DNA from: Caldifarciminota bacterium
Lineage (GTDB): Bacteria > Hydrothermota > Tepidihabitantia > SM23-42
NCBI GenBank assembly: GCA_016936155.1
Contig: JAFGPO010000129.1
Location: forward strand, 1 to 36,163
Direction: 5' to 3'
DNA length: 36,163 bases
The notes beneath the pieces were generated by a model. That model was not told the origin of the DNA. It saw only the letters and a list, made by a program, of their open reading frames with translations, and ran no database searches. Of this stretch, positions 10,979 through 14,586 are shown piece by piece (the stretch's first letter is position 1; each line of letters begins with the position of its first letter). The position numbers were made by a program, and so were the translations under genes.

Positions 10979-12488
10979 TAACCGTATCATGAGCATGTTC
11001 CGGATCTGTGCCCGGGTGATCTTCCATGTAATGAAGTCCGCGTGATTCCTGGCGGCGTAAAGCCGATTCGATGATCATGAGGGCGATATGGGTCATATTC
11101 AATGATTCAGCGTTCTTGTAGTGTATGCCATCCGCGATCTCAGCATACAGGCGGCGCACTTGATCGCGCGCCGCAATAAGTCCCTGTTTGTTCCTGATCA
11201 CACCGACATACCGCGACATGATCTCTTTAATCATCAACTTACGGTCTGGACATTTGTCCGGAGTCGCATTTATCGGCACATCCCGGGGGATCGCCAATCC
11301 AGCTATGTCTCCTGCGTGCTGAGCGGCACGGGTCGCGAACACGAGCGCTTCTAAAAGGGAATTCGATGCGAGACGATTACTTCCATGGACACCGGTACAT
11401 GCGCTCTCTCCCAAAGCATAGAGACGTTTTATCGATGTTTCACCTTGCGTGTTTACCTGTATTCCGCCACACGCGTAATGGGCGGCGGGTACGACCGGTA
11501 TCGGCTCCCGTGTAATATCAATACCCCAGCGCAAACATGTATCGTATATCGTTGGAAAACGATTCCGCAAAAAATCCGCGGGGAGGTGGGAGATATCGAG
11601 CAGAACATGTGTGGTTCCAAGGCGTTTCATCTCCGCAACACACGCCCGCGCGACGATATCGCGCGGTGCGAGATTACCCGCGGTGCTATATTTATCCATG
11701 AACGGTTCACCTTCTGTGGTCTTCAATATTCCACCCTCACCCCGAACTGCTTCTGAGATCAAGAACGAACGACCATCGACCTGGATCGTAAAGACCGCGG
11801 TTGGATGGAATTGCACGAATTCCATATTCGCGATACGCGTACCAGCGCGGAATGCCATTGCAATACCATCACCCGTCGCGATCGGCGGATTGGTCGTGTG
11901 CATGTAGACCTGCCCGGCACCGCCGGTGGCAAGTGCCGTTGCGTCCGCATAGAGGATATCGATCCGCCGCGTGTCTGCATCAAAATAGTACACGCCACAG
12001 CATTCGTCGTTGTCCACGACCAGATCGAGGGCTATTTCATTCTCACTGATAACAACCCCGCGTTGTTTCGCCCGCTCGAGGAGCACGCGTTCGATTTCGT
12101 AACCGGTGTAATCCTTGGCATGCACGATACGGCGTTTTGCATGCCCTCCTTCGCGACCAAGCAGGAATTTACCCTGGGCGTCTACTGAAAAACGGCAGCC
12201 CATGTCGTAGAGCTCCTGGACAAGCCGGGGTCCATTCGAAACCATGATCTCGACCGCGTCTTTATGGCAAATGCCGACACCTGCATTCAGCGTATCCTGG
12301 ATATGGCTATCAAAGGAATCTTCATTGCTGAATACGGATGCGATCCCCCCCTGGGCGTAGTTCGTATTGGTATCAGCTTTTCTTTTTTTGGTCAAAATCA
12401 GAATGTCCGCAGGCCTTGGGATCTTGGTGGCAAAGGTCAATCCGGCAATACCAGAGCCGATCACAAGAAAATCAACTTTTCTCGGCAT
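10953..12488 (-). CDS. nadB: L-aspartate oxidase
   Basis: 511 residues. A flavoprotein that oxidises L-aspartate to iminoaspartate, the first step of de novo NAD synthesis; nadA and nadC are not in this window. Seen: the FAD dinucleotide loop GSGIAGLTFA near the N-terminus, NYAQGGIA, the REGGHAKRRIVHAKD active-site block, and ACGGI...L..LYALGE near residue 360. Two ATGs stand in tandem (12491 and 12488). I prefer 12488 because 6 bp then separate it from the TAGAAT box, matching the leaderless spacing seen at ispD and ligA. Divergent from ligA. Confidence 0.95.
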   Translation of the reverse strand: MPRKVDFLVIGSGIAGLTFATKIPRPADILILTKKRKADTNTNYAQGGIASVFSNEDSFDSHIQDTLNAGVGICHKDAVEIMVSNGPRLVQELYDMGCRFSVDAQGKFLLGREGGHAKRRIVHAKDYTGYEIERVLLERAKQRGVVISENEIALDLVVDNDECCGVYYFDADTRRIDILYADATALATGGAGQVYMHTTNPPIATGDGIAMAFRAGTRIANMEFVQFHPTAVFTIQVDGRSFLISEAVRGEGGILKTTEGEPFMDKYSTAGNLAPRDIVARACVAEMKRLGTTHVLLDISHLPADFLRNRFPTIYDTCLRWGIDITREPIPVVPAAHYACGGIQVNTQGETSIKRLYALGESACTGVHGSNRLASNSLLEALVFATRAAQHAGDIAGLAIPRDVPINATPDKCPDRKLMIKEIMSRYVGVIRNKQGLIAARDQVRRLYAEIADGIHYKNAESLNMTHIALMIIESALRRQESRGLHYMEDHPGTDPEHAHDTVIDRTSILE

Positions 12489-12494
12489 CATTAC

Positions 12495-12522
12495 ATTCTA
12501 TGTATATCCTTTGACAAGTCAA
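12495..12522 (-). promoter_or_regulatory. Predicted leaderless promoter of nadB
   Basis: TTGACT (12522-12517), 16-bp spacer, TAGAAT (12500-12495) on the minus strand. The first ATG lies 3 bp after the -10 box and the second 6 bp after it. The -35 box is half of a palindrome TTGAC-AA-GTCAA (12511-12522), which could also be an operator. Confidence 0.72.
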
Positions 12523-12549
12523 TACTGACATCCCGGTGCACTGCTTATA

Positions 12550-12577
12550 TTGACTGATTTTTGTTCATCATTATAAT
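12550..12577 (+). promoter_or_regulatory. Predicted leaderless promoter of ligA
   Basis: TTGACT (12550-12555), 16-bp spacer, perfect TATAAT (12572-12577). Five bases separate the -10 box from the GTG start at 12583, so the transcript should begin at or within a base or two of the start codon. No Shine-Dalgarno is present. Confidence 0.8.
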
Positions 12578-12582
12578 ATCAT

Positions 12583-14586
12583 GTGCTGAAAAAAGATATC
12601 AAAAACGCGATCGAGAAACTACGGGAGGAAATACGGTACCACGATCACCGTTACTATGTGTTGAACGATCCGGTGATCTCTGATCAAGAGTACGATGGAT
12701 TGTACCGTTCTCTTGTACAATTGGAAAGAGAATACCCGGAACATATCACTCCTGACTCGCCCACCCAGCGCGTGGGAGGGGCACCGCTCGACTCGTTCGA
12801 AACGGTCACGCACCATATCAAAATGCTCAGTTTGGACAATACGTATAACGATGATGAAGTACGCGATTTCTTTACGCGTACGGAAAAGGCCTTGGAAGGA
12901 CCTGTCAGATATGAGGTCACCCTCAAGATCGATGGGGTAGCGGTAACACTTCTCTACAAAAAAGGACACTTTGTCCTTGGGGCGACCCGCGGTGATGGTG
13001 TTCACGGTGACGACATTACGCAGAACTTAAGGACGATCCGATCAATACCGCTTTGCATCACTCACGGTCAGAAGGATATCCTTGATATCGAGGTTCGGGG
13101 GGAGGTTTTTCTCTCCAAGGAAGCCTTTAAGCGCCTGAATGATGTCCGGGATCGAACAGGACAAGCACTGTTTGCTAACCCGCGAAATGCCGCTGCCGGT
13201 ACCCTGAAACTGCTCGATCCCATTGAGGTTGCACGACGCGGGTTGGACATATTCATTCACACCATACCTCAGCAACCTGGCGTGCGCTTCACTTCCCACT
13301 ATGAAACACTCGGGTACTTAACCAAAGCCGGATTCAAAGTCATCCCTCATATGGCGCTTTGTGATCGTCCAGACCAGGTGTTCAAAGAAATCGCGCGCTG
13401 GCAGGAGCAGCGCAAGGACCTTGCGTATGAAGTCGATGGTCTGGTGATCAAGGTTGATTCGTTTGAACACCGTGAAATTCTGGGGCACACCATAAAGAGT
13501 CCCCGCTGGGCGATCGCATATAAATATCCTGCGATGCAAGCGGTAACGCGATTACTTGCCATACAGCTGCAAGTCGGTCGAACAGGACGGATAACACCGG
13601 TTGCGTACCTTGAACCGGTCCATGTATCTGGATCAACAGTGTCCCGTGCTACCCTTCATAATGAGGACGAAATCAAACGTAAAGACATCATGATTAATGA
13701 TTACGTCGTGATCGAGAAAGGTGGTGAGATAATACCCAAGGTGGTTGCCGTGGTAACCGCACAGCGAACAGGAATCGAGAAAAAGTTCCGTTTTCCTAAA
13801 AAATGCCCGGTATGTGCGCAGCCGATCATCCGTCTACCCGAGGAAGCAGACTGGCGATGCATCAATGTAAGCTGTCCAGCTCAGATCAAAGGACGCATAC
13901 TGCACTTCGCTTCCCGCCAGGCAATGGATATCGAAGGTCTCGGTGAAACACTCGTCAACACGCTGGTTGACAGCAGGATAGTTACCAGTCTTGACGATCT
14001 CTATACGCTCGATAGAACGAAGATCATAGCCCTGGAAAGAATGGGCGAAAAGTCAACGGATAATCTGCTTGCATCGATTGAGGCGAGCAAAAGCAAGGAA
14101 TTCAATCGGGTTTTGTACGCCCTGGGTATTCCGAATATTGGTATCAGCGCATCTCTTTTACTCGTTGAACGGTTTAAATCAATACGAGAACTCATGGAAG
14201 CATCAGTTGAACAATTGTCAGAAATCCCTGGTATCGGGGAAATAATCGCTAAAAGTATTATAAAATACTTTAATAGTATCTCAAATCAACGTCTGATCAA
14301 ACATCTGCAAAAACATGGTGTGCAATTCAAGCATGAAAAAAGATCCACTCGTACGCTGTTATTGAATAAAAAATTCGTATTCACCGGTGAATTAGTGACG
14401 ATGAGCCGGGATCATGCGCAGGAACGTGTCCGCGCATTGGGTGGCACGCCGTTGACCGCTGTTTCGTCCAAAGTCGACTATGTCGTTGCTGGTGAGGATC
14501 CTGGTTCTAAAATGGCAAAAGCCAGGAAATTAGGCATAAAGATCATCAAAGAAAAGGAATTTTTGGAGCTTATAAGAGGGGGTTGA
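12583..14586 (+). CDS. ligA: NAD-dependent DNA ligase
   Basis: 667 residues, normal length. Seals nicks with NAD+ in replication and repair. Seen in order: Ia domain with [18 protein letters not shown], adenylation domain with the nucleophile lysine at about 115 in [28 protein letters not shown] fold, four-cysteine zinc finger (CPVC near 408 and CINVSC further on), helix-hairpin-helix region (IPGIGEIIA), and a C-terminal BRCT domain (about 590-667). The start is GTG, placed 5 bp after a perfect TATAAT. The downstream ComFB-like gene starts 2 bp after the stop. Confidence 0.97.

Follow-up and report, generated by a model that had tools for sequence, protein, structure and literature searches.

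Predictions of leaderless genes cover 207 of 953 bacterial genomes (Zheng et al. 2011, PMC3160421) and 21.6% of representative bacterial species (PMC9581028). In the TA-led genes of Zheng et al. 2011, a -10-like signal precedes the start codon by about 12 bp, there is no Shine-Dalgarno (SD) sequence, and SD-led genes exist alongside, as at the locus described here; but in our case the -35 box is also near consensus and the spacing could be followed gene by gene through an order, while that survey of 953 genomes predates the genomes of this lineage. In mycobacteria (Shell et al. 2015, PMC4633059), a 5' ATG or GTG is necessary and sufficient, and the leaderless set is partly common between species. 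Our locus resembles this in that its mRNAs are expected to open with the start codon, in the use of ATG and GTG and in having an SD-led class alongside, whereas the mycobacterial case was shown by RNA-seq, ribosome profiling and reporters and ours is drawn from sequence comparison. The promoter side of leaderless starts has been established for Deinococcus (PMC12340547). Our locus matches the layout known from Deinococcus-Thermus, where the -10 box lies a few bp upstream of the ORF, the spacing is required, the mRNA is leaderless and classical SD genes coexist; but in that group a TANNNT often suffices with no -35 box (PMC12340547), whereas here the promoters mostly have TTGAC and TATAAT, and our search required the -35.

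The window, i.e., the whole stretch of 36,163 nucleotides that was analysed, is contig C21 of a 2.49 Mb assembly (86% complete), and the nearest named relatives of its genome are candidate division WOR-3 and TA06 bacteria. From WOR-3, one strain, sy37 (NBRC 116057, PMC12285271), has been isolated. A search of the open-access literature (subscription papers being outside its scope) found no report that connects leaderless initiation to WOR-3, TA06 or Stahlbacteria. Leaderless starts are already known in bacteria; what appears to be new here, and is well supported by comparison, is their predicted use in a little-studied lineage.

The intergenic region of nadB and ligA

The NAD-dependent DNA ligase gene ligA (12583-14586, forward strand) begins with a GTG at 12583, a start position that matches that of relatives, and the L-aspartate oxidase gene nadB (10953-12488, reverse strand) begins with an ATG at 12488. 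Both proteins scored above the curated cut-offs of their TIGR models (TIGR00575, 828.7 bits against 444.45; TIGR00551, 543.5 bits against 452.75). The two genes diverge from a 94-bp intergenic region (12489-12582). Most family members, and G025 too, have them side by side and divergent, separated by about 90-340 bp. The neighbours also have NAD in common, nadB encoding the first step of NAD synthesis and ligA an NAD-using ligase.

Both promoters lie inside the 94 bp, with their -35 boxes 27 bp apart. On the forward strand, the ligA -35 box TTGACT (12550-12555) is followed by a 16-bp spacer, the -10 box TATAAT (12572-12577), 5 bp (ATCAT, 12578-12582) and the GTG; on the reverse strand, the nadB -35 box TTGACT (12517-12522) is followed by a 16-bp spacer, the -10 box TAGAAT (12495-12500), 6 bp and the ATG. 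This is base for base the layout given in the preliminary description. The promoter scan gave 11/12 consensus matches for ligA and 10/12 for nadB, and the 3 kb scanned held 8 promoter-like sites versus 3.7 ± 1.7 in shuffles. In the comparison with relatives, the window's score went unmatched for both genes in 300 shuffles of each upstream region. Both promoters have TTGACA-like and TATAAT-like hexamers at a spacing within the 16-18 bp of sigma-70 (RpoD-type) promoters, and the consensus points to the housekeeping sigma factor as their likely transcriber. The distance from the first T of the -10 box to the start codon is 11 bp for ligA and 12 bp for nadB, in the range of about 10-12 bp that defines TA-led genes.

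RNA polymerase normally starts about 6-8 nt past the -10 box. With boxes ending 5-6 bp before the start codons, transcription would begin at the first start-codon base or at most one or two nucleotides from it; this base is a purine in both genes. Both mRNAs would then be leaderless, and the ribosome would bind the 5'-terminal GUG or AUG without SD pairing. The earlier claim that neither gene has an SD was borne out by the pairing energies with the anti-SD over the 20 nt upstream, which were +1.0 kcal/mol for ligA and -0.1 kcal/mol for nadB and thus nil, compared with a mean of -7.35 kcal/mol for the best starts of the non-leaderless first genes of transcription units in the same genome. An AAGGA at 12511-12507, 18 nt before the nadB ATG, lies within the promoter spacer, so it is upstream of the presumed transcription start, and it was not found in relatives.

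As the start of nadB, 12488 had been preferred to a first ATG at 12491, and this choice held. The ATG at 12491 lies 3 bp from the -10 box and is not an ATG in relatives, whose nadB ATG stands 5-6 bp from the box, with x-(Lys/Arg)-x-Val-Asp or a sequence close to it encoded next. Only 12488 is homologous to this ATG, and homology therefore points to this start independently of the promoter argument. From 12488, NadB would begin with Met-Pro-Arg-Lys. The palindrome TTGAC-AA-GTCAA, to which attention had also been drawn, is present in the window but absent from the intergenic regions of relatives that were compared, so it is probably a coincidence, and we rejected it as an operator. Inspection by eye for an operator common to both promoters gave none that stood out. 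An overlapping ATG at 12581 (ATG TGC TGA) was ruled out as a meaningful upstream ORF, being not conserved.

Conservation of the spacing among relatives

Conservation of the distance between -10 box and start codon in relatives had been set beforehand as the test of leaderless transcription. We therefore examined the ligA and nadB orthologues of up to 60 relatives, picking out the best-matching -35/-10 pair and recording how far it lies from in-frame starts (d), with the order-level counts covering families f1 and f2 (family and order, candidate division WOR-3/TA06), window included. For nadB, 24/24 loci had TTGAC[AT] and a -10 box separated by a 16-bp spacer, with the ATG at d = 5-6. For ligA, TTGAC plus any base, a spacer of 16-17 bp, TATAAT and d = 5-6 to GTG or ATG were found in 21 of the 22 readable loci (the masked G005 being excluded); the exception was G025, which keeps the promoter but has 23 bp to the ATG. 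The GTG of ligA was kept in about half of the family.

Beyond the order, the two genes behaved differently. A weaker ligA version, mostly with TTGACA, a less perfect -10 box and d = 4-7, was present in 22/26 scored loci from the other families of the class (G056 had no scorable site), some of them poorly separated from shuffles when taken singly (p up to 0.1). The arrangement at nadB was found in 0/6 scored loci outside f1 and f2. Relatives that keep the genes and lose the spacing had been named as the refuting outcome. The spacing was conserved through the order for both genes and through much of the class for ligA, which supports the leaderless interpretation, with nadB beyond the order as a qualification.

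The ligA genes without the promoter (G029, G035, G052 and G040) each follow a long open frame on the same strand at a distance of 16-18 nt, and in G029, G035 and G052 the ATG of this operon-internal ligA is preceded by AAAGGAGG. Since the promoter is missing from operon-internal ligA and AAAGGAGG stands before three of these four genes, ligA looks leaderless where it heads a transcript and SD-led where it is inside an operon.

A genome-wide class of start-adjacent promoters

The arrangement is not peculiar to this pair but belongs to a genome-wide promoter class. In a 535-kb sample of the window's genome, with ORFs taken by a simple longest-ORF picker and no gene finder, a recognisable promoter was found at 109 of 219 potential heads of transcription units, and the distance from the -10 box to the next in-frame start peaked at 5 bp (16 genes) and 6 bp (13 genes). 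Operon-internal control genes had such a distance (3-9 bp) in 2/144 cases. Bacillus-type loci gave none at 5-6 bp and a cluster at 17-18 bp; a looser count of any start placed one Bacillus gene at 6 bp. The exact pattern TTGAC-N17/18-TATAAT-N5/6-RTG had 91 matches in this genome and 61-133 in each other f1/f2 genome, compared with 23 (7-43 in the others) for a control offset to N13-14 and 1 for the reversed pattern in this genome. In a WOR-3 chromosome, the N5-6 and N13-14 counts were 101 and 26. The offset control is perhaps somewhat low, as a leader that short has no room for an SD, but unrelated genomes answer this point, with 2 versus 2 in Lentibacillus, 4 versus 2 in Metabacillus and 0 versus 0 in an acidobacterium.

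Strict leaderless calls were made for 37/219 first genes of transcription units in this genome and 18/153 in G004, mostly with ATG and some with GTG. At these starts, the anti-SD pairing averaged -0.27 and -1.32 kcal/mol, respectively, compared with -7.35 and -7.83 kcal/mol at the best starts of other genes. Shuffling the upstream DNA gave 10.6 calls versus the 37 observed (G000, the window's genome) and 1.0 versus 18 (G004). This control left the DNA downstream of the first start unshuffled, so more weight was given to the operon-internal, offset and Bacillus controls. Among 43 sampled reciprocal-best pairs, 8 were leaderless in either genome and just 4 of these in both, which means that the leaderless trait turns over for other genes.

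Elsewhere in the class, most families had fewer copies of the exact pattern, and in many families of the phylum it was rare or absent, in a single-consensus search that could miss clades with other -10 sequences. The counts per genome were 61-133 in f1/f2, 51 in f3, 17-33 in f4, 34-41 in f5, 4-14 in f6 and 67 in f8, with none or one in f17, f22 and f23. The spacer of the exact TTGAC/TATAAT promoters in the G000 and G004 samples, leadered and leaderless together, was 16 bp in 54/58 cases; the usual E. coli promoter spacer is 17 bp.

Other genes of the window have similar boxes. The longest ORF of ispD begins at a TTG at 2508 (reverse strand) that doubles as the opening triplet of a TTGACT -35 box, and this TTGACT-16-TATTAT promoter (window 2475-2508) stands 5 bp before an ATG at 2475 (reverse strand), where IspD homology begins. 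With the promoter 5 bp upstream and the homology beginning there, 2475 is probably the true, leaderless start of ispD and the TTG at 2508 a false one. Promoter boxes also lie 9 bp before the valS ATG (19959, reverse strand), where the G004 orthologue has 6 bp from box to ATG, and 8 bp before the ATG of a J-domain/TPR gene (10403, reverse strand); these two genes are possibly leaderless or have leaders of 1-3 nt.

SD-led starts are clearly used as well, since SD sequences peak at -8 to -11, and most genes look SD-led. The five relatives whose 16S provides the evidence have an intact anti-SD, and we rejected loss of the anti-SD as a cause of leaderless starts (the assembly of the window's genome lacks a 16S gene). 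A missing ribosomal protein S1 was rejected as a cause too, with an S1-like protein in 22/23 family genomes; these matches were all below the curated cut-off of the model, as were those in 12/14 control genomes. The lineage thus appears to use both the SD-led and the leaderless mode.

Alternative readings and biological meaning

Taken together, the data argue for leaderless ligA and nadB transcribed from divergent sigma-70 type promoters in an organism with two start systems, and we put the probability of this reading at roughly 0.87. Under it, SD-led initiation would serve most genes, including operon-internal ones, and leaderless initiation about 10-20% of transcription-unit heads. The transcription start site, the leaderless translation and the use of a 5' GUG are here predictions from sequence and conservation. 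Counting against the leaderless reading are the 23 bp at ligA of G025, the absence of the nadB arrangement at the six loci outside the order, the turnover among pairs and the weakness of leaderless GUG initiation in E. coli (PMC4633059).

The same promoters might instead start transcription a few bases away, giving leaders of 1-4 nt or mixed 5' ends with translation still independent of an SD. A spacing of 5-6 bp permits slippage of a base or two, and the genome also has promoters at 8 and 9 bp (9 and 7 genes); but the sharp peak at 5-6 bp places the start-codon purine (A/G) at the expected +1, and we consider such a shift unlikely. It is quite improbable that the adjacent boxes are minor promoters, with the main transcripts beginning further upstream and carrying ordinary leaders. 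Other weak promoter-like matches do lie nearby, but a longer leader would not explain initiation at two starts that lack an SD, and it is the adjacent boxes that stay conserved while the intergenic regions vary in length from about 90 to 340 bp.

We give very little credence to true starts further downstream with their own SD, for which the boxes would be ordinary promoters with leaders. The occurrence of GGGAGGAA within ligA at 12623-12630 would suit this idea, but no start codon follows it at a proper distance, and the similarity of LigA to its relatives begins at residues 1-9; in nadB, the next in-frame start (GTG) stands directly before GSGIAG and would cost the first strand of the FAD-binding fold. 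Chance resemblance of AT-rich intergenic DNA to promoters is refuted by the comparison, mainly because the arrangement is conserved at the loci of the order: isolated consensus matches turn up often (3.7 would be expected in the scanned 3 kb), but the fixed spacing is kept in dozens of genomes and recurs as a genome-wide peak with negative controls.

Leaderless transcription of ligA would demand good initiation at a 5' GUG, as in mycobacteria and unlike E. coli, where leaderless GUG initiation is weak (PMC4633059). On balance, we favour the wider picture of an order of WOR-3 bacteria with a large leaderless class of some 100 near-consensus promoters in each genome and efficient 5'-GUG starts as in mycobacteria, in which single genes such as ligA may be held leaderless across families, with an SD only inside an operon. 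ligA would then offer a natural series, leaderless in most families and SD-led where it is operon-internal. Leaderless promoters of this kind would also fix gene starts that SD-tuned gene finders may miscall, ispD in the window being an example, and would extend widespread leaderless transcription to a largely uncultured phylum.
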